A stretch of DNA of 22,481 nt from a virus (IMGVR_UViG_3300002460_000040:27460-49940), one strand, 5' to 3'. Shown: positions 6,536-22,481, numbered from the stretch's first letter. The notes: generated by a model from the sequence alone, not told the origin. Translations and numbers: made by a program.

Positions 6536-7222
6536 ATGAATCAAAATATTTGGAAACTGGAGGTCTCTGGGAACTCTCTGGAGGTTCCTGGGAATTCCTT
6601 GGAAATCCCTGGGGACTCTCTAGAGGTCCCTGGGAATTCCATGGCAGAAGAACCTCAAAAGGCGGTTGTGAAAATCACCTCCCCGATATTCAAAACGATT
6701 TTTGATAGAGTGAAAAAATATCGGATCGAAAAGGGATTGTTTCGACAAAGGTTCAGAAAAATTAAGAAAGGCGTATTTCAACATGGATTTCCTCTTTCTA
6801 ATGTGATCTGGGATTTGAGGGATCAAAACATCAGGACATTAAGGGTAACAGTAGCCACAGCCATATCGCAAGGAAAGGCCGCTACGACTTTGGCCAGAGA
6901 TCTTAAAGCTCTCACGTTCACAGGTCTATTATCAAAATCAGAGCTCGAAACATTGACTTTACCGCGCGGCGTTTATAAATCCGCTTATAAGAACGCTCTC
7001 AGGATGATCAGGACCGAAACCAATAATGCATATACAGAAGCTGAATTAGAATTTGCCCGGGAGAAAGGATATAAAAAGATGTGGAACGTTTCCCCGGGTC
7101 ATTCGGTGGTTGATGCATGCGATGATCTTGATGGAAAGATTTTCGATCCAGATGATGTTCCATATCCCATCCATCCTAATGATCTTTGTTTTTTGACAAC
7201 AGTTATCCCGGAGATAGGATGA
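6536..7222 (+). CDS. MuF-domain minor head protein (C-terminal half), with N-terminal heptapeptide repeats
   Basis: The 228-residue product begins with a low-complexity stretch of four heptapeptides of form LEV(S/P)G(N/D)S at residues 8-35. A helical region (SPIFKTIFDRVKKYRIEKGL, VIWDLRDQNIRTLRVTVATA) follows, then the MuF signature ALRMIRTETNNAYTEAELEF...KMWNVSPGHSVVDACDDLDGK with PIHPND near the end. MuF proteins are minor capsid components ejected or placed inside the prohead. AAGGAAA upstream supports ATG 6536. A second in-frame ATG at 6641, right after the repeats, would give a product without them (MAEEPQKAVV). The 21-bp repeat separates this half from the upstream half and may have split an originally single gene. 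Confidence 0.72.
   Translation: MNQNIWKLEVSGNSLEVPGNSLEIPGDSLEVPGNSMAEEPQKAVVKITSPIFKTIFDRVKKYRIEKGLFRQRFRKIKKGVFQHGFPLSNVIWDLRDQNIRTLRVTVATAISQGKAATTLARDLKALTFTGLLSKSELETLTLPRGVYKSAYKNALRMIRTETNNAYTEAELEFAREKGYKKMWNVSPGHSVVDACDDLDGKIFDPDDVPYPIHPNDLCFLTTVIPEIG
6557..6640 (+). repeat. Four tandem 21-bp repeats (eight ~10.5-bp half units)
   Basis: Units lie at 6557-6577, 6578-6598, 6599-6619 and 6620-6640. The consensus half units are CTGGAGGTCC (10 bp) and CTGGGAATTCC (11 bp), alternating. Each 21-bp unit encodes one heptapeptide in the reading frame of the MuF gene. Units 2 and 4 contain the palindrome GGAATTCC, and three of the four carry a (G/A)GAGGT ribosome-site-like string. Confidence 0.9.
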
Positions 7223-7239: not shown

Positions 7240-8214
7240 ATGAGAATTTTGATTTCAGGCATAACGGGTTTTTGTGGATCACACCTTGCCGAATTTTGCA
7301 TTGGCAAAGGATGCGTCGTATTCGGCCCATTCAGGCAACGCAGCCGTATGGAAAATATTGAGCACATTAGAGATGAAATATGGCTTAGGGAATGCGATAT
7401 GACTGATCCGAATGCCACTGAATCATTAGTGAAATGGGCTAAACCTAATATCGTATTTCATCTGGCCGCCCAAAGTTTTGTAGGCGGATCTTGGGACAAT
7501 GCCGCTTCCACTATCAGAACGAACATTTATTGCCAATTAAATCTTCTGGAAGCGATAAGAAAATTAAAGATGGATGTTGTTGTGATCATCGCTGGATCGA
7601 GCGAAGAATATGGGATAGTCACGCCCGAAGAATGTCCAATTCGAGAGACAGCGGAATTGAAACCGACATCTCCCTATGGACTGAGCAAAGTGGCGCAAGA
7701 TTTGATGGGTCGTCAATATTATGAAAGTTATGGGATGAGAATTATAAGATGCAGAGCGTTTAACCATGAAGGACCTCGCAGAGGCGAACAGTTTGTGATA
7801 TCCAATTTCGCCAAACAAATCGTTGAAATTGAAAACGGTATGAAAGAACCGGTAATCGATGTCGGCAATTTGGATTCCGAAAGGGATTTTACAGACGTAC
7901 GTGATGTCATACGGGCTTATTGGTTATTGGCTGAAAAAGGAGACCCTGGAGATGTTTACAACATATGCAGCGGAATATCTGTTAAGATCAAGGATGTTTT
8001 GCAATCTCTTATAAAACAATCCGCGTATAACGGCAATATAGATATAAAACCGGATGAGAGCAGGATGAGGCCATCGGATATCCCATTTTTAAGAGGATCT
8101 AACGAAAAAATTGCCGGTAAAATCAAATGGAACCCGGTTATTCAAATAGATGAAACATGGCAGAACATGATGGCTTATTGGAGATTAAAAATAAAAAGTA
8201 AAAAAAGATCTTGA
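7240..8214 (+). CDS. GDP-mannose 4,6-dehydratase-like SDR enzyme
   Basis: An extended short-chain dehydrogenase of 324 residues. The NAD(P)-binding motif GITGFCGSH lies at residues 7-15, FHLAAQSFVGGSW follows, then GSSEEYG at 119-125 and the catalytic pair Tyr146/Lys150 in SPYGLSK. RCRAFNHEGPRRGEQFVISN and the run VGNLDSERDFTDVRDVIRAY are characteristic of GDP-mannose 4,6-dehydratase and its close relative GDP-6-deoxy-lyxo-4-hexulose reductase. The former makes GDP-4-keto-6-deoxymannose, the precursor of GDP-fucose, rhamnose-type sugars and perosamine. It is full length with all key residues present, so probably active. No good ribosome site precedes ATG 7240, which starts 17 bases after the MuF gene. 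A sugar-nucleotide enzyme between head genes is unusual; it may feed glycan modification together with the later sugar genes. Confidence 0.85.
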   Translation: MRILISGITGFCGSHLAEFCIGKGCVVFGPFRQRSRMENIEHIRDEIWLRECDMTDPNATESLVKWAKPNIVFHLAAQSFVGGSWDNAASTIRTNIYCQLNLLEAIRKLKMDVVVIIAGSSEEYGIVTPEECPIRETAELKPTSPYGLSKVAQDLMGRQYYESYGMRIIRCRAFNHEGPRRGEQFVISNFAKQIVEIENGMKEPVIDVGNLDSERDFTDVRDVIRAYWLLAEKGDPGDVYNICSGISVKIKDVLQSLIKQSAYNGNIDIKPDESRMRPSDIPFLRGSNEKIAGKIKWNPVIQIDETWQNMMAYWRLKIKSKKRS

Positions 8215-11333: not shown

Positions 11334-12395
11334 ATGGACCTAACACAAGAACAATCTCTTGCTATGGATTTCCTCGGTGATATGTCAAATCTCCTGACGA
11401 AGGAAAATAGAAATGATGTGTGGCAATCCAATATAATCGCCAATCGTAAATATTTCAAAAAAGGCAATCCTGATTTAACGGGTTTGACATCATTTATTGT
11501 AGCTGCTGGACCAAGCCTTGAAAAAAACGCGCATATCCTTAATGATATTTCAGAAAGAGGAGTGATAGTTTGTGTTGATGCTGCTCTCAGATATCTTTTT
11601 AAAAAAGGAGTGCGTCCTGAATTTTGTCTTTGCATAGATGGGTCTGAAAAGATGTTCGAGATGGTGAAAGAATGCGATACATCAGGGATAATCCTGGTCA
11701 CCACCCCATCGGCAGATCCTCATTTAATAGATTATTGGCGCGGACCAAGATGGTTTTTTACAACTCCATACCTCAATACAGATAAAAAGTTTAATCATAG
11801 GCATCTGACCAGGATCGTTAAAGCTAAAAAGGAACTAAAACCTGGAGATGAATTATTTTTGAACCAAGAATATGAGGTTGAATTCGAGGGAGTCAATCCC
11901 ATCGTTATGTGCGGTGGAAATGTAAGCACTTGCGCTCATCATTTCGCTCTTCAATATCTTAAATCTCAACAAGTGGTTTTCGTGGGTCTTGATCTTTCTT
12001 GGAAGTTTCAATCTCATCATTATGCCGGCAAAGAACACATGAATAACGTGATCGATAGGACCACGGTGGGCGTTGGCCTTCATGAAGACATTGATGGAAA
12101 AAATGTGTTCACGAATTTAAGTTTGCTTGGATTCAAAAGATGGCATGAAGCCATGGCCAGACAATTCGCCGGGACCGTCATAAATGCCACGGAAGGCGGC
12201 ATATTCGGAATTGAATTGGATGCAAAAACTCAACAATATAGAAAAGCGGATTTTATAGAGTTTTTGACATTATCTGAAGCAATAAAAAAATACGCGCCCA
12301 AACGCGATAGAGTATTCATACCACCCCAAGAACTTTTCGAGAAAAATGGACATGAAGATGCAGACGATGAACATGATGATGCAAGCAGCCAATAA
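11334..12395 (+). CDS. DUF115/MptE-like protein (Maf glycosyltransferase-related), copy 1
   Basis: The 353-residue product carries the DUF115 (6-hydroxymethylpterin pyrophosphokinase MptE-like) signature: FIVAAGPSLEKN, then VCVDAALRYLFKKGVRPEF and CIDGSEKM, followed by VMCGGNVSTCAHHFALQYLK and VVFVGLDLSWKF. The family includes archaeal MptE, a pterin pyrophosphokinase, and bacterial Maf proteins, which transfer CMP-activated nonulosonic acids to flagellin. A CMP-sugar synthetase in the same operon favours the Maf-like reading, but this is inference. The C-terminus is strongly acidic (GHEDADDEHDDASSQ) and overlaps the next gene by 50 bases. It has no clear ribosome site and follows the 10-bp repeat array. 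It and its neighbour stand between the decoration-like and major capsid genes, an unusual place for enzymes. Confidence 0.72.
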   Translation: MDLTQEQSLAMDFLGDMSNLLTKENRNDVWQSNIIANRKYFKKGNPDLTGLTSFIVAAGPSLEKNAHILNDISERGVIVCVDAALRYLFKKGVRPEFCLCIDGSEKMFEMVKECDTSGIILVTTPSADPHLIDYWRGPRWFFTTPYLNTDKKFNHRHLTRIVKAKKELKPGDELFLNQEYEVEFEGVNPIVMCGGNVSTCAHHFALQYLKSQQVVFVGLDLSWKFQSHHYAGKEHMNNVIDRTTVGVGLHEDIDGKNVFTNLSLLGFKRWHEAMARQFAGTVINATEGGIFGIELDAKTQQYRKADFIEFLTLSEAIKKYAPKRDRVFIPPQELFEKNGHEDADDEHDDASSQ

Positions 12396-13215
12396 ACTAG
12401 TTGAAGAAGAAATATTCAGGACGCGAACCATCAGGACCCTTGTTAAGAAAAAAGATGGCTGGATGGATAATGCTAAAGAAAATTCTTCTTTCATACAAAA
12501 TACAATCACCGATCTTTGGAAAGACAATGGGAATGAAAAAGGGATTGCATGCGCCGCTGGACCGAGTTTATCCGAAGATTTATTCGATTTGCGATTGGAA
12601 AGAAAAAATGCAGAATTGATCTGTGTTGATGCCGCGCTCAAATTCCTTCTGAATAATGATATCGAACCGGACTATTGTTTTTCATCAGATGATAATTTTG
12701 AAATCATGAAAATGTTGGATGTAGGCCGCGTTAAAACGAAATTGATCGCCAATGTGATAATCCATCCTCTTGTGAATGATGTTTGGAAAGGGGATGGAAT
12801 TTTTTGGTTCATCATGGCCAATAACGCTTATGATCTCGATAATAAAGCCATGATCCAAGATATGCATGCAATAGCGACAAGAGTAGGAGCCAATATTATT
12901 CCAGGAGGGAATGTCAGCAGTCTCATGAATGGATTCATGCTTTCTGTCAGGAATATTAACAAATTGATTCTTTATGGTCATGATTTTTGTTGGAAAACTG
13001 ATATGTATTGCGGTGGAAATCATAAAAACCTTGAAAAAATAAGAATAGAAACTGAAAGAAATGCAGGAACCTTGTTTGAAACGATCAATACCAAAGGCGA
13101 AACTGTTTTAACGAACAATAGCCTTAAATCGTTTTGCGCATGGCATAAACAGAATCTCTCACGCATGAGGAATAGGATCGAAAACAGAACTACAAGCACT
13201 ATACTTGAAATTTAA
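12346..13215 (+). CDS. DUF115/MptE-like protein (Maf glycosyltransferase-related), copy 2
   Basis: A 289-residue paralogue of the preceding gene. The shared blocks are CAAGPSLSEDL, ELICVDAALKFLLNNDIEPDY, SSDDNFEIMKM, IIPGGNVSSLMNGF, LILYGHDFCWKTDMYCGG and VLTNNSLKSFCAWHKQNLS, matching AAGPSL, VCVDAALRYLF, CIDGS, GGNVS, VGLDLSW and VFTNLSLLGFKRWHEA of copy 1. The N-terminus is methionine-rich (MDMKMQTMNMMMQ) because it reads the GATGA-rich tract that gives copy 1 its acidic tail, so the true start among several ATGs is uncertain. Translation is probably coupled to copy 1. The stop is 14 bases before the major capsid start, and the AAGGAGG of that gene follows at once, so the pair is co-transcribed with the capsid gene. 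Likely role: transfer or recognition of an activated sugar; unproven. Confidence 0.7.
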   Translation: MDMKMQTMNMMMQAANKLVEEEIFRTRTIRTLVKKKDGWMDNAKENSSFIQNTITDLWKDNGNEKGIACAAGPSLSEDLFDLRLERKNAELICVDAALKFLLNNDIEPDYCFSSDDNFEIMKMLDVGRVKTKLIANVIIHPLVNDVWKGDGIFWFIMANNAYDLDNKAMIQDMHAIATRVGANIIPGGNVSSLMNGFMLSVRNINKLILYGHDFCWKTDMYCGGNHKNLEKIRIETERNAGTLFETINTKGETVLTNNSLKSFCAWHKQNLSRMRNRIENRTTSTILEI

Positions 13216-13229
13216 GGAGGAAACGGCAA

Positions 13230-14204
13230 ATGAAGCCGATTTATCAATTGAGGAGTATAAAAGAAGCGGCGACTAGACCTGAATTTTACCGCTTTTTGAA
13301 TGTTGGTTTGAAAGACCTTTTATTTAAAGCGTACAAGGAAGCTGCTTCTACATATGAACAGCTTGTCCATTTTGAGGATTCCGATAAATCAAAAGAAGGA
13401 TATCCCTCTATGGGCGCTCCGGGTCTTCCCGAGCAAGTACGTGAAGGAGAATCTTACAAGGAAGGTCAATTCGGGCTTGATGACATGGTTGAAATTACCA
13501 ATCTGAAGTACGGAGAAATTATCGCTGTGACGCATGAAATGATTGAGGATGATCAAACCAAGCGCGTCATTCAGCAGCCAAATAGGATCGGAGCTGGGCA
13601 TAAGAAGTTTGAAGATAAAATCACGTATTCGATTTTAACAGCCAATGCCACTGCCTATGATTCACAAGCATTTTTTTCTTTGAATCATCCTGGAATAACA
13701 GGAGGAGGCGCTATTGCCGCTAATGACAATATTCTTACTGCTGTTACTCTCAGTGCCAATGCAATCGCTCAAGCCTTAGGTATCATGGCAAGATGGACTG
13801 GAGCTTCAGCTGATGATATTTTAGATGTGACTGCCAAAAATTTGGTGGTACCTAAAAACTTAAAATATACGGCGAATATTCTGACGCAAAGCGCTTTCCT
13901 TCCATTGGCGTTTGCCGCGGGAGTTTTGGGTCCAGGAGCCACCACAGGTCAAGCCAAAAATGTTCTAGCAGATGAAAATCTAGGCGTCATATCATCTGCC
14001 AGACTTGATAGCTCATCGACGACTGATTGGTATATTTGGTCGGATTTTCCAGGACTGATTTTTCAAACCAGAGAACCTCTAAAATTATTGGCTGAAAGCG
14101 AGGAATCTGGAACTTTCTTTGAAAGAGATGTTCGTAGATGGAAATCTAGAAAAAGATTCCGCATTGGCGTCATCAATTGGCGTGTTGGAATGTTGATTTC
14201 TTAG
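13230..14204 (+). CDS. Major capsid protein, Mu gpT-like (HK97 fold)
   Basis: The 324-residue protein has a near-perfect AAGGAGG site nine bases before ATG 13230, the strongest in the window, as expected for an abundant product. Characteristic pieces are the N-terminal PEFYRFLNVGLKDLLFKAYK, EGQFGLDDMVEITNLKYGEI and the following AVTHEMIEDDQTKRV, DSQAFFSLNHPG with glycine-rich turns, NLVVPKNLKYTANIL and the C-terminal TDWYIWSDFPG followed by RFRIGVINWRVG. This matches the Mu major head subunit group, which builds the icosahedral shell. No long N-terminal scaffold domain is present, in agreement with a separate protease/scaffold upstream. It is a strong marker of a Mu-like or siphovirus-type head. 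Confidence 0.87.
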   Translation: MKPIYQLRSIKEAATRPEFYRFLNVGLKDLLFKAYKEAASTYEQLVHFEDSDKSKEGYPSMGAPGLPEQVREGESYKEGQFGLDDMVEITNLKYGEIIAVTHEMIEDDQTKRVIQQPNRIGAGHKKFEDKITYSILTANATAYDSQAFFSLNHPGITGGGAIAANDNILTAVTLSANAIAQALGIMARWTGASADDILDVTAKNLVVPKNLKYTANILTQSAFLPLAFAAGVLGPGATTGQAKNVLADENLGVISSARLDSSSTTDWYIWSDFPGLIFQTREPLKLLAESEESGTFFERDVRRWKSRKRFRIGVINWRVGMLIS

Positions 14205-14232
14205 AAAATAAAAAAACGATGGAGGTTAAAAA

Positions 14233-14775
14233 ATGACAGACGGAGCTATGGGAACAACCCGGGAAATTTCCGTTGAAGAAACGCAAGCCGGCATGAAACT
14301 TGAAAGAGACGTGATAGGACGCAAAAACAGGGTTTTGGCTTATGCTGGGGAAGTTTTGACCAAAAAACATGTCGATCAATTCAATAAATGGGAAAAACGC
14401 GAAAAACCGTTAGGGCCGGCTATCGCTAGGCCGAAAGATTCACCGTCATGGACGAAGGTCAATCATGAAGAATTCCAAGGCGGATATAAATTGTCTCATT
14501 TCCAGCCTGATGGCAAAATCTCAATATCACGAACACTTGCCAGTGGACAAATAGCGCCAGATGTAGAGAGAGATCCAACTAAATCGCCATTATTTCAGAA
14601 TAGAGACACCAATCCAAGAAAGTCATTTGCGATGTCACCTAATCTGAATATTGAATCTCCTCTTTTGCGTGAGATGCAGGAAAAGGTAACAAAACTTGAA
14701 TTAGAAAATATTAAATTAAAAATGAATCAACCAAAACCTAAAAGGAAATATACGAGGCGAGTTAATATTGCCTGA
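14233..14775 (+). CDS. Unknown protein of the head module, 180 aa
   Basis: GGAGG precedes ATG 14233, 28 bases after the capsid gene. Residues 10-55 (ISVEETQAGMKLERDVIGRK, YAGEVLTKKHVDQFNKW) resemble the short 'L..GM.L.RDV....G..L...G..LT..HI..L' unit that also appears at the N-terminus of HD-GYP signalling proteins; no HD-GYP domain follows. The middle (residues 56-140) is proline-rich and looks disordered. The end has a short coiled coil (SPLLREMQEKVTKLELENIK) and a very basic tail (PKPKRKYTRR). Basic tail and position would fit a head-completion or DNA-contacting protein, but no function can be assigned. The stop overlaps the TTG start of the next gene. Confidence 0.6.
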   Translation: MTDGAMGTTREISVEETQAGMKLERDVIGRKNRVLAYAGEVLTKKHVDQFNKWEKREKPLGPAIARPKDSPSWTKVNHEEFQGGYKLSHFQPDGKISISRTLASGQIAPDVERDPTKSPLFQNRDTNPRKSFAMSPNLNIESPLLREMQEKVTKLELENIKLKMNQPKPKRKYTRRVNIA

Positions 14776-15040
14776 CGAAAAAGATAAAATACGTGTCGGC
14801 CTCTGGATCAAAAAAATAATAGATTCAGATAAAGCGCATGGCAGGTCTCAAAATGATTTCAATGCCGACAATATGGAGCTTTCTGTACGATCTGCCGCTC
14901 CTGTCATGAATCTGAGAGGGTTCGATGTTTACCAAGGCGGGGGGAATATATTCTATGTCAAATATGATCCAAAAGGACCTATAGCGATCCAAACAAGGCC
15001 TTTGGCTCAAAGAGTGGTGCGACTAAAATTCTCTGATTGA
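14768..15040 (+). CDS. Small unknown structural-region protein, 90 aa
   Basis: The frame starts at TTG 14768, overlapping the previous stop by 8 bases; GAGG at about 14755 may serve as ribosome site. The product (DKIRVGLWIKKIIDSDKAHG, then VMNLRGFDVYQGGGNIFYVK and GPIAIQTRPLAQRVVRLKFS) looks like a small beta-rich domain. I do not recognise a family. It sits between the head-module unknown and another small beta-rich protein, a position often taken by neck, connector or decoration proteins. The TTG start is the weakest part of the call. Confidence 0.55.
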   Translation: MPDEKDKIRVGLWIKKIIDSDKAHGRSQNDFNADNMELSVRSAAPVMNLRGFDVYQGGGNIFYVKYDPKGPIAIQTRPLAQRVVRLKFSD

Positions 15041-15050
15041 TGGAGGCATC

Positions 15051-15368
15051 ATGGGTTTTGCTCATATTCAAAAATCAAGCAGGCTTCAAGATACTGCTGC
15101 GGATGCGTCGATAACATTCGGAGCGCCCGGGGCCGGAAAATATAACATTATCACTGGTATTGAAGTGGAAAGCAGTGCGGCAGCCACTATAACGATACAA
15201 AGCCCGGCGAGCACGAATTTGTGGCAAACCGGCATAACTGCCGATGAAACATCTTTTATTGCTTGGAACGATTATAATGCAATCAGAGGCGCAGAGAATC
15301 AGGCTGTAGTCATCGCTGTAAGCGCCGGAAATTATACTGTGAATGCGAGAGGATACGTGACGCCGTGA
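15051..15368 (+). CDS. Small beta-rich virion-type protein, 105 aa
   Basis: TGGAGG lies just before ATG 15051. The 105-residue product is rich in Ala, Thr, Ile and Gly (ITFGAPGAGKYNIITGIEVE, SAAATITIQSPASTNLW, AVVIAVSAGNYTVNARGYV), the usual composition of small jelly-roll or beta-sandwich decoration and tail proteins. It resembles in style, though not clearly in sequence, the protein at 18910-19359. The stop overlaps the GTG start of the CMP-sugar synthetase (GTGA). Structural role is likely; exact function unknown. Confidence 0.55.
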   Translation: MGFAHIQKSSRLQDTAADASITFGAPGAGKYNIITGIEVESSAAATITIQSPASTNLWQTGITADETSFIAWNDYNAIRGAENQAVVIAVSAGNYTVNARGYVTP

Positions 15369-16135
15369 TTTATTTTATTCCTGCCAAAAAAGAATCCAAA
15401 AGAGTTAAAAATAAAAACACCAGGGTAATCGGCGGGAAACCATTGATCGAATGGACATTTGAATCAATCCCGAAATTTTCCAGAATCATTTTATCCACTG
15501 ATGACAAAGAGCTCATAAGCATGACGCCTTTTTTTTCTCGAGGCATTGAAACTGTTTTAAGACCCTCCTCTCTTTGTACTGAAACAGCCAAAATGTCAGA
15601 TGTTCTTTTCTATCATTCAGATAGAGGAGATTTTGAGGGGGAAGATCTGGTTTGCGTTCTATATCCGACAAGCCCTTTCAGAACGATAAAGCATATAAAT
15701 GAATCAATCGCCAAATGGAAAATGGAGAAGAAAGATTCCGTTTTGATGAGCGTATGCGGAGTGAATTATAGGCCAAGAGGTTTGATGACCATTGATCCAG
15801 ATGGAGCTCTCAAATTCAATAGAGAGGATGCCACACTATGGTATCAAACGCAAAATATGCCCATAGATTATCGAGCGAATGGGGCGATATATCTCATACC
15901 ACCCATATTCATCCGAAACAGGTTGATAGATGCCCAATTGTTCGCTAAAAGGACGATCCCATATATTATGAACAGCATTGATGGATTTGAAATTGATGAA
16001 GAAAATGATGTCAAAATTGCAGATCATCTCCTTAGAATATTCAGATTTAATAAAATAATTTCATCCTCAGTGTATGCATCTAATGTCAGCACATCCGTCA
16101 TTGATCCTATCGATATATGCGTTTCCCAGACTTAA
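15365..16135 (+). CDS. CMP-nonulosonic acid (sialic/pseudaminic-type) synthetase, cytidylyltransferase
   Basis: The 256-residue protein starts at GTG 15365, overlapping the previous stop. The N-terminus IPAKKESKRVKNKNTRVIGG with KPLIEW and ILSTDDKELI is the CTP-binding region of the NeuA/PseF/KdsB-like family (usual form IPARxGSKRIxxKN, here with Lys for the Arg). It is followed by VLYPTSPFRTIKHINESIAKW, YRANGAIYLIPP and the metal-binding end FEIDEENDVKIADHL. The family couples CTP to N-acetylneuraminate, pseudaminate, legionaminate or Kdo, giving the CMP-sugar used by glycosyltransferases. Length and motif order are complete, so it is probably active; the sugar cannot be read from sequence. 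No biosynthetic genes for the sugar are in the window, so it would be taken from the host. It overlaps the next gene by 19 bases. Confidence 0.85.
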   Translation: MIYFIPAKKESKRVKNKNTRVIGGKPLIEWTFESIPKFSRIILSTDDKELISMTPFFSRGIETVLRPSSLCTETAKMSDVLFYHSDRGDFEGEDLVCVLYPTSPFRTIKHINESIAKWKMEKKDSVLMSVCGVNYRPRGLMTIDPDGALKFNREDATLWYQTQNMPIDYRANGAIYLIPPIFIRNRLIDAQLFAKRTIPYIMNSIDGFEIDEENDVKIADHLLRIFRFNKIISSSVYASNVSTSVIDPIDICVSQT

Positions 16136-17832
16136 CCAAAACAAAAAGATCAGTCAGAAAATATATTCATCCAAAAGATATAATCAAAAACATTGATCTA
16201 AAAAACTTGGCGGGGACCAATATCCTTTTTATAAATATGCCGATCCGCGAATCAGCGCCGCCAAATTGTCTTCCTACTGGAATCGCTTTACTCTCATCTA
16301 GATTAAAATTATATGAATGTAAAGTATCGGCGATAGATCTCAACGCGTACAGATTTGACGACGGAAATAAATTTCGATGTATTTCAGGAATCCAAGCGTT
16401 TCAATTAATCAAACGCCACATCGAAAAATATGGAATGCCTGATCTGGTGGCTTTTTCAGGCATGATAACCACGCTTAGGTGGCAGGAAAAAATAGCAAAA
16501 ATCATTCGGCAAATAGCCCCGGATTCATTCATCGTGTCTGGCGGAGGTCTTGCCACGGAATTCAAAGAGGATCTATTTTCATGGATACCAGAATTGGACG
16601 CAGTCGCTCATTCAGAAGGCGATTTATCCATACTCAAAATTGCATGGGATTCCAAAAAAATTAAAATGTTTGGATTTGATTATTGTCATTTTTCTGGAAT
16701 GCTCAAGCCTTACCATATCGGCAGGTTTGGAAATAGGGAAAGATTTGTATACGATGGCGGAAGACCGGATAATCTTGAATTGGTACCATTGCCGGACTAT
16801 GATCTTTTCAGGGAAGATGTCGATGGATTTCCAATTCTTGAAACTTATTTGAAAAATCAGATATGGGGCATTCAGGCAAACAATAGCTCGGCCACGCCAT
16901 TTTCCATGCAGCGAAGCATAAATATGATTTCAAGCAGAGGATGTCCGTTCGCTTGTAATTTTTGTTTCAGAAAATCATTCGGAGATAGAAATTATGGCAT
17001 TCGTTCAGGCAAAAGCATGGCGGATGAGATGCTGGAATATGCCGCGAAATATAAAATTGATTTCATTGGAGTACTTGACGACAATTTTATGGTTGATAGA
17101 AAAAGGATAATAGAGCTGCCAGAAAAAATGAAGATGGTCAAATCGATAGGAATCAAATGGGGAACCCATGGAAGGCTTGATGAAGCGGCGGACCTTAAAC
17201 CAGAAAAAGGATTTAATGATCCATTAAGAGTGGAAAAAATGGCCGAGGCTGGATGCGTTTATATAGGATTTGGTGCCGAAAGCGCCTCCGAACGAATCAT
17301 TAAAGCAATGGGAAAAAACGGCTTCATTTTATCGAACGGATCAGTTGAAATCGATGGATGGGAATTTCCAAAGACGATGGTTGAAGGAGTTAAGAACACC
17401 AAAAAAGCGGGAATCCATGCTAACCTCACCTGGATCATGGGATATCCCGGCGAAACATTGGAAGATTTAAAAAACACGATTGCTTTTATAAAATGGCAGG
17501 AAGATTTTTATAAATCATTCGATGCACAAAATGCAGTCAATAAAAAATTATTCATTGCCACGGCATATCCAGGGACCGAAATGTTCGAACATCCGACGGT
17601 TAAAAGAAAACTTTCATATAATTTCGGCGTCAAATTCGACGAACATGGAATCCCTTGCATGGACGACAATTTCCATTATTATGTCTCGGGACTTGATGAT
17701 GCCGACAAGCTCTTGACCGACAGAGATGGACGTCCGCTTCATTATGGAGAGATGACTGATGAGTCATTTCTTGAAGCCAAGAGATTAGTAGATAATGATA
17801 GAACGTTCGATATCCTGGAGATGGCGGCATGA
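16117..17832 (+). CDS. B12-binding-domain radical SAM protein
   Basis: The 571-residue product has an N-terminal cobalamin-binding-type domain (about 33-190: TNILFINMPIRESAPPNCLP, ALLSSRLKLYECKVSAIDLN, DLVAFSGMITTLRWQEKIAK, FIVSGGGLATEFKEDLFSWI). The radical SAM barrel follows, with the iron-sulfur motif CPFACNFC (Cys276, Cys280, Cys283), FIGVLDDNFMVDRKRI, YIGFGAESASERIIKAMGK and LTWIMGYPGETLEDLKNTI. Such enzymes methylate or rearrange unactivated carbons on sugars, lipids, tetrapyrroles and peptides, using S-adenosylmethionine, a 4Fe-4S cluster and often B12. All cluster cysteines are present. The last about 60 residues are not recognised. It lies between the CMP-sugar synthetase and sialidase-like genes with overlaps on both sides, suggesting a sugar or surface-glycan substrate. 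Substrate unknown. A phage-encoded enzyme of this type is uncommon. Confidence 0.88.
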   Translation: MRFPDLTKTKRSVRKYIHPKDIIKNIDLKNLAGTNILFINMPIRESAPPNCLPTGIALLSSRLKLYECKVSAIDLNAYRFDDGNKFRCISGIQAFQLIKRHIEKYGMPDLVAFSGMITTLRWQEKIAKIIRQIAPDSFIVSGGGLATEFKEDLFSWIPELDAVAHSEGDLSILKIAWDSKKIKMFGFDYCHFSGMLKPYHIGRFGNRERFVYDGGRPDNLELVPLPDYDLFREDVDGFPILETYLKNQIWGIQANNSSATPFSMQRSINMISSRGCPFACNFCFRKSFGDRNYGIRSGKSMADEMLEYAAKYKIDFIGVLDDNFMVDRKRIIELPEKMKMVKSIGIKWGTHGRLDEAADLKPEKGFNDPLRVEKMAEAGCVYIGFGAESASERIIKAMGKNGFILSNGSVEIDGWEFPKTMVEGVKNTKKAGIHANLTWIMGYPGETLEDLKNTIAFIKWQEDFYKSFDAQNAVNKKLFIATAYPGTEMFEHPTVKRKLSYNFGVKFDEHGIPCMDDNFHYYVSGLDDADKLLTDRDGRPLHYGEMTDESFLEAKRLVDNDRTFDILEMAA

Positions 17833-18932
17833 TAAACAGATCGATAGTCAGAGAATCGGATGATATTTCAGGATTTTATTTTCCAGATATCGTTACAGAT
17901 GGAAGTAAACTTATCTGTTGTTATGTAGAGAGTCAAAATCATTCTATTAGAAAAGGGAGCCGGTTATGGATTTCTAGATCAGATGATTTCGGAATCCATT
18001 GGGAACATCAAATTATTTCTGAATCCGATATCGCTGGGGATTCTTTTTGGAACGCGCCGCGCATGATCGTTGATATCGACTTAAAAATAACCATCGTTAT
18101 CGATAAGATGCCGGCTGTCAAAATCGGATATGATTTTCAATCCGATCTTGGGGATCAGGCCCGCCTGGAAGTATGGGCTTTTGAATCAGATAATTTGGGT
18201 CAAACATGGAATAAGAGAAAAACGATGATAACCGGCTTATGTCCCTCAATCAGTCATGCTATCAATGGCGATGTGGTCGTAGCCGTCAATAAATTCGATG
18301 CGTTCGATGGGATAAGGAAAGTCCAAACATGGAGATCAAATTCGCTTTATTCAAATGAATGGATAACCGCATTGGTCCCCGGCCAAAAAAACGTATGCGA
18401 AGGAGAATTGATTGAGATTGGAGACAAATGGATTCTTTTGATGCGTGCCATGTCTTCCGTTTGCGTCCCGGGCGCCAGATCAATTTCAGCGGATGGATGC
18501 CGGACATGGTCTGAACCCGAAGGGTTCATTGTGCCAGGCGGAATGCATAGGCCTAATGCTGCCAGGCTTAGAAGCGGTCATTTTTTTATATCTTCCAGAT
18601 TATTCGCCGGATCGGGAGCCGGTTCTCAAATGACGATTGCTTCTCTTGTGCCTGAATGGTCTATGCTTGCTCCCAGGATATCTCAAAATGCGCTTATCAT
18701 GCCGCTGGATTATAATGCAAGATGCGATTCGGATCAAGGATATACGGGTTCCTGCCAAATCGATGATGGAACCATTTTCGTCGTAAATTATTTGAATCCG
18801 CCCGGGCATGGAACAGGAATATATTTTTATCAATTAATGGAATCTGATTTTGACGACTCAATGAAGAAGCAAAAACCGATTTATGAATATGCATTAATAG
18901 GAGGAAACAATGGGAAGAAGATATGCAGTTGA
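17829..18932 (+). CDS. Sialidase-like protein (Asp-box/BNR beta-propeller)
   Basis: The 367-residue protein starts in the stop of the radical SAM gene (ATGA). It has three Asp-boxes of form S-x-D-x-G-x-(T)-W: SDDFGIHW (51-58), SDNLGQTW (120-127) and SADGCRTW (220-227), spaced as in a six-bladed sialidase propeller. NVCEGELIEIGDKWILLMRA (188-207) resembles the sialidase strand that carries a conserved Glu and Arg. It has no signal peptide or anchor, so it is probably cytoplasmic or virion-bound. Sialidases remove terminal nonulosonic acids; as a virion part it could cut a host glycan receptor. Asp-box propellers also occur in non-enzymatic or other glycosidase proteins, so activity is not certain. 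It overlaps the following structural gene by 23 bases, which ties its expression to virion proteins. Confidence 0.75.
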   Translation: MINRSIVRESDDISGFYFPDIVTDGSKLICCYVESQNHSIRKGSRLWISRSDDFGIHWEHQIISESDIAGDSFWNAPRMIVDIDLKITIVIDKMPAVKIGYDFQSDLGDQARLEVWAFESDNLGQTWNKRKTMITGLCPSISHAINGDVVVAVNKFDAFDGIRKVQTWRSNSLYSNEWITALVPGQKNVCEGELIEIGDKWILLMRAMSSVCVPGARSISADGCRTWSEPEGFIVPGGMHRPNAARLRSGHFFISSRLFAGSGAGSQMTIASLVPEWSMLAPRISQNALIMPLDYNARCDSDQGYTGSCQIDDGTIFVVNYLNPPGHGTGIYFYQLMESDFDDSMKKQKPIYEYALIGGNNGKKICS

Positions 18933-21304: not shown

Positions 21305-22481
21305 TGTCTAATTATTATTTTTATCAATATCCCATAGAAACGAAAGTTTATTCGACCGAAGGCGAAAGGATCACACCGGATAAATGGGGTCCGAATGAAC
21401 CGCATGTTGTCAGGCCACCTCGATTTCGGAAAGCTGTCTTTGCCGTTTCCCTCTTTTTTGTCGCAACAGCAACAATCCCGGCTCCTGCAATGGATTCTTG
21501 GGTCCAGCCGACAAATGAGCCGATATTTGATATCCAACGCCGTCAAGATTCTTATCCAGCTTCTTTCTGGATTCAATATCAGACATTAGAGATTCCAACC
21601 GTCGATAGATGGGTTCGGCCTCTTTCAGAACCATTATTTGATTCGATCCGGCGTCAAGATTCATATCCATCTTCATTTTATATCGAAAAAGAGACATTGC
21701 CAGCTTCCTCCTTAGATGGTTGGGGGATTCAACAAGCTCAACCCATATTCAAGAAAAAACCGAATCCGGCGCAAGAACCTTCTTATAGTTTTGAGGCGAT
21801 TTTTGAAGAAGAAATTACGATTGATAAATGGTTCGTTAAGCCGGGCGATCCGCACCTTCCATTAAGAAATCCTAATGTTGGACCGGCATTTTTCATTGAT
21901 GATTTGGCGCTCATGCAATTGGAAACGCCTCAATTGGATAAATGGATCGGCCACCATTCAATCCCTGTATGGGATTTGCCGCGTAGACAATGGCTGTATC
22001 CTTTCGCGGACCAGGATCGAACGGCTATGTTGGAAGCAGGCGGCGCCGAACCGATGGTTTGGTGGATGGAAAATTTCGTTCCCGTTCTTCCTTTTCCAAG
22101 ACCGGCATGGTTCAAGCCATTTCATCTTGATCCGGTTATTTTCGGCGTTTCTGAAGGATTTGAAGATTTAGTTGAATTCGATTCATATTTAGGATTTTCA
22201 AGTAGACAGATTTCGAATGAGATAGGGAAACATCGAGAAAGAACGTTCATCAGTTATCTCAATAATGAAATTCATAAAGGAGATGTAGGTACTAAATTTT
22301 TGTCGACGATCCAGGACAATGATGTCATCGTGGATATATCGGGAGCAATAAGCAAACAGCTTCTATTCCAGAAACCGGACGGCACGAACATAACCCAAAC
22401 GGCGTTATTTGATACCAATGGAACGGATGGAAAAATTTATTATACGACTGCAAGCGGAGATTTGAATGTTATCGGCAGATG
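21304..22481 (+). CDS. Large fibre/tail-type protein with six W-containing repeats and a BppU-like domain (3' end outside window)
   Basis: ATG 21304 overlaps the preceding stop (TGATG), and the frame stays open for 392 codons to the window end. Residues 26-251 consist of six units of 36-40 residues, each starting D-x-W (DKW, DSW, DRW, DGW, DKW, DKW); the second and third are most alike, sharing RRQDSYP(A/S)SF(W/Y)I. From residue 326, GDVGTKFLSTIQDNDVIVDI and KQLLFQKPDGTNITQTALFD form the beta-sandwich found at the N-terminus of BppU-type baseplate and receptor-binding proteins. A fibre or baseplate component reaching past the window is likely. The hydrophobic run in the first unit (AVFAVSLFFVATATIPA) fits the repeat pattern and is not clearly a membrane helix. 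Confidence 0.65.
   Translation, partial: MSNYYFYQYPIETKVYSTEGERITPDKWGPNEPHVVRPPRFRKAVFAVSLFFVATATIPAPAMDSWVQPTNEPIFDIQRRQDSYPASFWIQYQTLEIPTVDRWVRPLSEPLFDSIRRQDSYPSSFYIEKETLPASSLDGWGIQQAQPIFKKKPNPAQEPSYSFEAIFEEEITIDKWFVKPGDPHLPLRNPNVGPAFFIDDLALMQLETPQLDKWIGHHSIPVWDLPRRQWLYPFADQDRTAMLEAGGAEPMVWWMENFVPVLPFPRPAWFKPFHLDPVIFGVSEGFEDLVEFDSYLGFSSRQISNEIGKHRERTFISYLNNEIHKGDVGTKFLSTIQDNDVIVDISGAISKQLLFQKPDGTNITQTALFDTNGTDGKIYYTTASGDLNVIGR
21379..22056 (+). repeat. Six degenerate ~111-bp tandem coding repeats
   Basis: The units are 21379-21492, 21493-21603, 21604-21714, 21715-21822, 21823-21936 and 21937-22056, each encoding 36-40 residues that begin D-x-W and usually contain a P-(I/L/V)-(F/W) element about ten residues on. 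The second and third units still share DNA identity (CGTCAAGATTC(T/A)TATCCA in both), so they are the youngest duplicates. Confidence 0.7.

Follow-up and report, generated by a model that had tools for sequence, protein, structure and literature searches.

A tailed phage known from a 49,940-bp IMG/VR virus record (IMGVR_UViG_3300002460_000040, here genome G000), of which bases 27460-49940 form the 22,481-nucleotide stretch analysed (the window), probably glycosylates its own virions. Its genes, and models of their products, indicate that it makes and activates a sugar of the nonulosonic acid (NulO) type and attaches it to the capsid and tail-tube proteins. Decoration of the virions is probable because enzymes for making and activating such a sugar are encoded together with Maf-like transferases of the DUF115 family (PF01973), whose genes lie beside the capsid and tail-tube genes (Table 1). 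We observed the gene identities, their order, a split in the DUF115 tree, a match to the Maf fold and purifying selection in one genome pair, and from these we infer substrate, linkage, acceptors and any benefit in shielding, charge, stability or adsorption. A NeuB-family synthase would condense phosphoenolpyruvate with a precursor of the hexose type, made by the host or modified by the phage, to yield a nonulosonic-type acid, which a cytidylyltransferase would convert to the cytidine monophosphate (CMP) sugar. A B12-binding radical S-adenosylmethionine (SAM) enzyme and a methyltransferase are candidates for tailoring the precursor or the sugar, as perhaps are a TIM-barrel protein and, in some genomes, a GDP-sugar short-chain dehydrogenase/reductase (SDR). 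DUF115a, with DUF115b as partner or second enzyme, would then attach the sugar to the capsid protein, and DUF115c to the tail-tube protein, the reaction taking place in the cytoplasm prior to or in the course of assembly.

The three DUF115 proteins of G000 match PF01973 with 73-102 bits (cut-off 34.6). A profile of 19 viral DUF115 proteins retrieved Maf (5mu5) with an E-value of 5.9e-20 over 234 columns and MptE (8sd5) with 6.9e-14; the next matches, led by sialyltransferases, were non-significant (E about 0.24). The preliminary description of the window had raised a match to pterin kinases as one outcome that would speak against a glycan system. When AlphaFold (AF2) models of DUF115a (predicted local distance difference test [pLDDT] 79, predicted template modelling score [pTM] 0.81) and DUF115b (pLDDT 89, pTM 0.86) were compared with known structures by Foldseek, both matched Maf 5mu5 best (6.3e-11 and 3.6e-10, respectively), followed by MptE and then human ST8SiaIII. 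Judged by fold and context, the DUF115 proteins thus appear to work like Maf enzymes, which O-glycosylate Ser/Thr residues of flagellin from CMP-NulO, one of them also accepting N-acetylneuraminic acid (Neu5Ac) and Kdo (PMC11339370). A role as pterin pyrophosphokinases of the MptE type, or as other enzymes of small molecules without a link to the sugar genes, is extremely unlikely. The Pfam family is named MptE-like, and MptE is the second structural match; however, Maf is nearer by both profile and fold, and we rejected a pterin kinase role on these grounds. Moreover, at the D-L-D position of MptE, a motif with a presumed function, the first Asp is lost and only the second residue is acidic in most viral copies. 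DUF115 also co-occurs with NeuB and cytidylyltransferases, and its neighbours are sugar genes, with no pterin genes noticed nearby. Annotations of the family in further uncultured phages read only MptE-like or uncharacterised.

The gene order is conserved in related phages. Alignment of the three DUF115 proteins led to 17 viral loci, and alignments of the capsid, NeuB and DUF115b proteins to more; alignments were needed because scanning viral contigs with patterns from single proteins gave no matches. Matching order was observed in G010 (locus L015), G023 (L109), G025 (L191) and G027 (L193); further carriers are G022, with the block of G023, G026, alongside G025, and the fragments L044 and L190. 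In all five genomes, including G000, the order runs protease, decoration protein, DUF115a, DUF115b, capsid, small genes, cytidylyltransferase, radical SAM enzyme, methyltransferase, NeuB, TIM barrel, tail-completion genes, DUF115c and tail tube, with three DUF115 matches in each genome. Some genomes have extra genes within it; in G000 the gene for a BNR-repeat protein and others stand between the radical SAM enzyme and the methyltransferase. The radical SAM gene adjoins the cytidylyltransferase gene in the other four. Protein identity to G000 ranges from about 27% (radical SAM enzyme, G010 and G023) to 72% (decoration protein, G025), and the GC content from 0.39 (G010) to 0.63 (G027), which suggests different hosts for the five phages. 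Saturation of synonymous sites precluded dN/dS estimates for nearly every gene, and the comparison of G010 with G023 is therefore given as pN/pS, the ratio of nonsynonymous (pN) to synonymous (pS) differences: pS is 0.74-0.93 (saturated or nearly so), pN 0.15-0.38 and pN/pS 0.16-0.44. DUF115a is better conserved between the two (78% identity) than the capsid protein (70%). Since pN is low while synonymous sites are saturated, the enzymes are maintained by purifying selection in this genome pair. The order has been kept in five divergent genomes, with synonymous saturation in the pair tested; thus, the arrangement is more than chance. The preliminary description had also counted missing synteny against a glycan system; the synteny of DUF115, cytidylyltransferase and radical SAM genes that it anticipated is accordingly present, its extension to the sialidase-like BNR gene in one relative only.

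The grouping of the DUF115 proteins points to their acceptors. A maximum-likelihood tree was built from 21 viral DUF115 proteins; in it, the TRANSFERASES grouping tracks the adjoining structural gene, capsid-adjacent and tail-adjacent copies being separated with a branch support of 99/99. On one side stand all tail-tube-adjacent copies (7/7, from the five genomes plus the G001 pair on either side of its tail protein); on the other, all capsid-adjacent copies (11/11) together with three that adjoin neither gene. This split is the best evidence for a pairing of transferase and acceptor, and the head and tail pairs are ready enzyme-substrate candidates. The preliminary description had named virion protein or host surface as target; of these, the host surface is disfavoured, since the DUF115 clades track the structural neighbour. 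A module acting on flagellin, lipopolysaccharide or the S-layer, leading to superinfection exclusion or altered host behaviour, does have precedents: the known Maf acceptor is flagellin, pseI in ocean viromes was interpreted as motility augmentation (PMC6359870) and A. baumannii prophage enzymes reportedly modify the NulO of the host capsule (PMC12053666; PMC6586298). However, we consider it unlikely in view of the tree, of the position of the sugar genes among head and tail genes within the structural block, and of the lack of a match to envelope polysaccharide transfer among the proteins scanned, which did not comprise every gene.

Modification of the virion proteins themselves is thus preferred, with the capsid protein as the proposed acceptor of DUF115a and DUF115b. 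The Ser/Thr content, 0.133 in the capsid protein without clear enrichment and higher, 0.179, in the tail tube, was not used as evidence. The supply of the sugar is indicated by NeuB, which in an alignment with N. meningitidis NeuB retains E19, K47, Q49, K125, Y188, H216, H237 and D249, residues that we take to have active-site or catalytic roles in the meningococcal enzyme. The nearest PDB entries of the cytidylyltransferase are CMP-NeuAc synthetases (3.2e-19 and 1.1e-18). This enzyme agrees with the earlier suggestion that the phage activates a host NulO; however, the phage would not only activate, since NeuB is encoded and relatives add NeuC or PseB, PseC and PseH.

Several points weigh against virion glycosylation with a NulO as outlined. 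The three-domain architecture of flagellin Maf (PMC11339370) is absent, DUF115a and DUF115b comprising 353 and 289 residues compared with 666 in 5mu5; DUF115c has an extension at the N-terminus only, and the best score against the full-length PseD model of NCBIfam is 80.6 bits (DUF115c, residues 175-410; cut-off 670). We therefore use the label Maf-like. In DUF115b the NATEGG motif is replaced by NRTTSTI, so this protein may be a partner or an enzyme of other specificity. The cytidylyltransferase stays below the PseF equivalog cut-off of NCBIfam (3.6e-23, 82.4 bits against 205.7), and NeuB below those for NeuB (300/399.65) and PseI (220.5/340.25). An arginine in the C-terminal (antifreeze-like) domain of NeuB, presumably Arg314, which we take to bind the N-acetyl group of the substrate, is Ser in G000, G025 and G027; several phage NeuB proteins have no antifreeze-like domain, and neither NeuC nor PseC was matched in G000. 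Owing to these losses and to the missing NeuC and PseC, the exact structure of the product is uncertain: it would be a nonulosonic-type acid, possibly from a non-acetamido sugar, and may differ from sialic, legionaminic and pseudaminic acid. Moreover, an old duplication kept in place could give a similar split in the tree, and gene adjacency is no proof of the acceptor.

Related sugar genes occur in other viruses. NeuB and the cytidylyltransferase were both found in 10 of the 22 DUF115-bearing viral loci and in none of the 55 others (77 loci, p 5.9e-7), a value that is only a guide because separate queries retrieved the two sets and the loci lacking DUF115 are in many cases short; this sample is also small and partly selected for DUF115, a further reservation about the glycosylation reading. 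A NeuC-type epimerase accompanies NeuB, cytidylyltransferase and DUF115 in G013-G017, and DegT-type aminotransferases occur in G004-G006. G001, which holds three DUF115 genes, encodes PseH (5.9e-25, just under the cut-off), PseB (1.5e-103), PseC (2.8e-101), NeuB and the cytidylyltransferase between its capsid and tail genes; PseG was not found in this genome. We hold it possible, though somewhat doubtful, that several phage lineages coat their virions by means of a full or partial NulO pathway and dedicated head and tail Maf-like transferases, the lineage of the window using an unusual ulosonic acid with a non-N-acetylated precursor and radical-SAM tailoring. In the collection of viral contigs at least 561 stretches carry a NeuB-family protein. 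Among the best 80 NeuB loci DUF115 is present in 18 and the cytidylyltransferase in 58, which suggests that viral NeuB often serves other uses. Of the 50,697 INPHARED records, three contain NeuB, two the cytidylyltransferase and two the radical SAM enzyme, and none a relative of DUF115a or DUF115c. In one scan of GTDB (A6), DUF115 loci were found only in Treponema and without phage genes; on these chromosomes (L105:7986-11101, L104, L106) DUF115 genes stand in tandem with no phage genes nearby.

Another destination of the sugar would be phage DNA, often the target of phage glycosyltransferases (PMC12619734), or the product could be a free cofactor or decoy metabolite, its structural position being operon convenience. 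This is very unlikely: Maf relatives modify proteins, three transferases adjoin two structural genes, and the lists of open reading frames (ORFs) showed no evident gene for hydroxymethyl-pyrimidine synthesis, although no specific search was made.

The genome map is most likely circular, because the first 32 bases of the record overlap exactly with the last 32 and an ORF of about 420 codons crosses the end-to-end joint. The right edge of the window therefore continues at L004:1, and past it lie, on the same strand, the methyltransferase, NeuB, TIM-barrel, DUF115c and major tail protein genes. The genome encodes terminase, portal, minor head protein, Mu gpT-like capsid protein, tail tube, tape measure and lysin; portal, minor head and lysin were named by sequence and position without a family hit, and the tail tube on a weak match to PHROG 807/2175. 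All genes of the preliminary description are open at the places it gave, with family hits for DUF115a, DUF115b, capsid, cytidylyltransferase and B12 radical SAM enzyme, and its junctions were confirmed as well: GTGA at 15365, ATGA at 17829, a 23-base overlap at 18910 and a 14-base gap between DUF115b and the capsid gene, whose start is preceded immediately 5′ by AAGGAGG. The DUF115a and DUF115b genes overlap by 50 bp as called, depending on the start chosen for DUF115b; in-frame ATGs as far as 12379 would cut this to 17 bases, and the start is uncertain between 12346 and 12379. Counts of promoters and terminators were at or near shuffle level.

Table 1. Genes of the proposed glycosylation system and adjoining genes in G000. 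Positions are those of the window unless prefixed L004.
Feature	Position	Strand	Details
GDP-sugar SDR	7240..8214	+	GDP-mannose dehydratase / GDP-4-keto-6-deoxymannose reductase type; PF16363 2.3e-75
DUF115a	11334..12395	+	Maf-like glycosyltransferase, capsid-adjacent group; PF01973 3.2e-29
DUF115b	12346..13215	+	second Maf-like protein; PF01973 2.3e-20
Major capsid protein	13230..14204	+	Mu gpT type; PF25209 1.5e-17, Mu gpT PF10124 2.5e-13, PHROG major head
Small protein	15051..15368	+	overlaps cytidylyltransferase gene by GTGA; homologues at equivalent place in L190, L191
Cytidylyltransferase	15365..16135	+	CMP-nonulosonate type; PF02348 2e-17
B12-binding radical SAM enzyme	16117..17832	+	PF04055 3.2e-18, PF02310 3.3e-8; CPFACNFC cluster motif
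BNR/Asp-box protein	17829..18932	+	beta-propeller-like; BNR_2 PF13088 6.6e-7, 29.4 bits (Pfam cut-off 31.4)
SAM methyltransferase	22466..22481 (start), L004:17-754	+	crosses the joint
NeuB-family synthase	L004:901-1995	+	PF03102 1.8e-78
TIM-barrel protein	L004:1992-2834	+	PF01261; overlaps NeuB by 4 bases
DUF115c	L004:4571-5887	+	third DUF115 gene; ends 22 bases 5′ of major tail protein gene
Major tail protein (tail tube)	L004:5910-6668	+	

Two further genes of the window look accessory, since each was found in one of the other four genomes only. The SDR, located between the minor head and protease genes, is nearest in PDB to 2pk3, a GDP-6-deoxy-D-lyxo-4-hexulose reductase (273 bits); a protein 43% identical occupies the equivalent place in G027, and no match was found in G010, G022 and G023. 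The BNR protein has a homologue in G025 (L191), 35% identical and located between the methyltransferase and NeuB genes, that keeps the motifs HRPN, EGE and DQGYTG. Its Asp boxes comprise one full and two degenerate copies, and the FRIP arginine motif was not found in it (no RIP motif). With this motif missing and a score below the Pfam cut-off, we rejected a canonical sialidase role; the earlier claim that the phage can also remove the sugar is thus unsupported, even though the gene is kept in one relative. Its role may be enzymatic, or it may belong to the virion.

Some additional features were observed. At L057:1417-4052, in a different phage whose capsid protein is related, a GDP-mannose dehydratase-like SDR gene shares 4 bases with a divergent DUF115 gene. 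G010 carries a gene resembling HNH/NUMOD3 homing endonucleases between the TIM-barrel and tail genes (L023:9652-10203), and the minor head gene at L044:2-1123 contains an apparent, putative intein-like insert (start CFDKETEVYT, end near VVWSGNCM). In G000, a C1q-domain protein (L004:12856-13566, PF00386 4.4e-7), possibly a receptor-binding tip, is encoded 3′ of the tail genes, and two paralogues of about 312-318 residues with WD40-like repeats (SGSxDxKVRVYR) are found at L004:18449-19387 and L005:5034-5990. Short repetitive stretches interrupt the otherwise 41% GC DNA: the one at L004:755-870 is GC-rich and ggaggctcccgga-like, and those at window 6536-6650 and L004:17505-17790 encode repeated peptide units.

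If the proposal is true, bacterial viruses would have a novel means of forming the virion surface, through a sialic-acid-like sugar that they make themselves and attach with separate transferases for head and tail; charge, stability, immune recognition and adsorption could be affected. The NeuB genes in hundreds of viral contigs, once interpreted in terms of motility, would gain a function, as would phage proteins labelled MptE-like that have no assigned role. In the open-access literature, to which the search was confined, we found no report of a phage-made NulO on virions, and virion protein glycosylation in phages is, in the literature found, reported for mycobacteriophages only.

The Maf/PseD flagellin transferases (Magnetospirillum Maf 5mu5, C. 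botulinum CbMaf) share the DUF115 domain, the best profile and fold match and nearby CMP-NulO supply genes; the phage proteins, in contrast, adjoin capsid and tail-tube genes, are shorter, and presumably act on an acceptor other than flagellin. MptE, the archaeal HPPK, shares the PF01973 fold. The bacterial NulO pathways (NeuC-NeuB-NeuA; PseB-PseC-PseH-PseG-PseI-PseF) likewise employ a NeuB synthase and a CMP-synthetase, and their NeuC or PseB, PseC and PseH recur in related phages; G000, however, has no early steps, carries the Arg to Ser change in NeuB, and adds the B12 radical SAM enzyme, the TIM barrel and the GDP-sugar SDR. Prophage genes acting on nonulosonic acids of the capsule (EpaA/EpaB, PMC12053666; O-acetyltransferases, PMC6586298) alter a sugar made by the host, and the excerpts of these reports describe neither a synthase nor a protein transferase within an operon of structural genes. 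A counterpart is provided by cultured mycobacteriophages, which, as far as the citing papers relate, glycosylate their own capsid and tail tube with phage-encoded transferases (Freeman et al. 2023, cited in PMC11600133 and PMC12619734) and in cluster O have a methyltransferase gene beside them. The system described here would differ by its Maf-like transferases and its phage-encoded synthesis and activation of the sugar.

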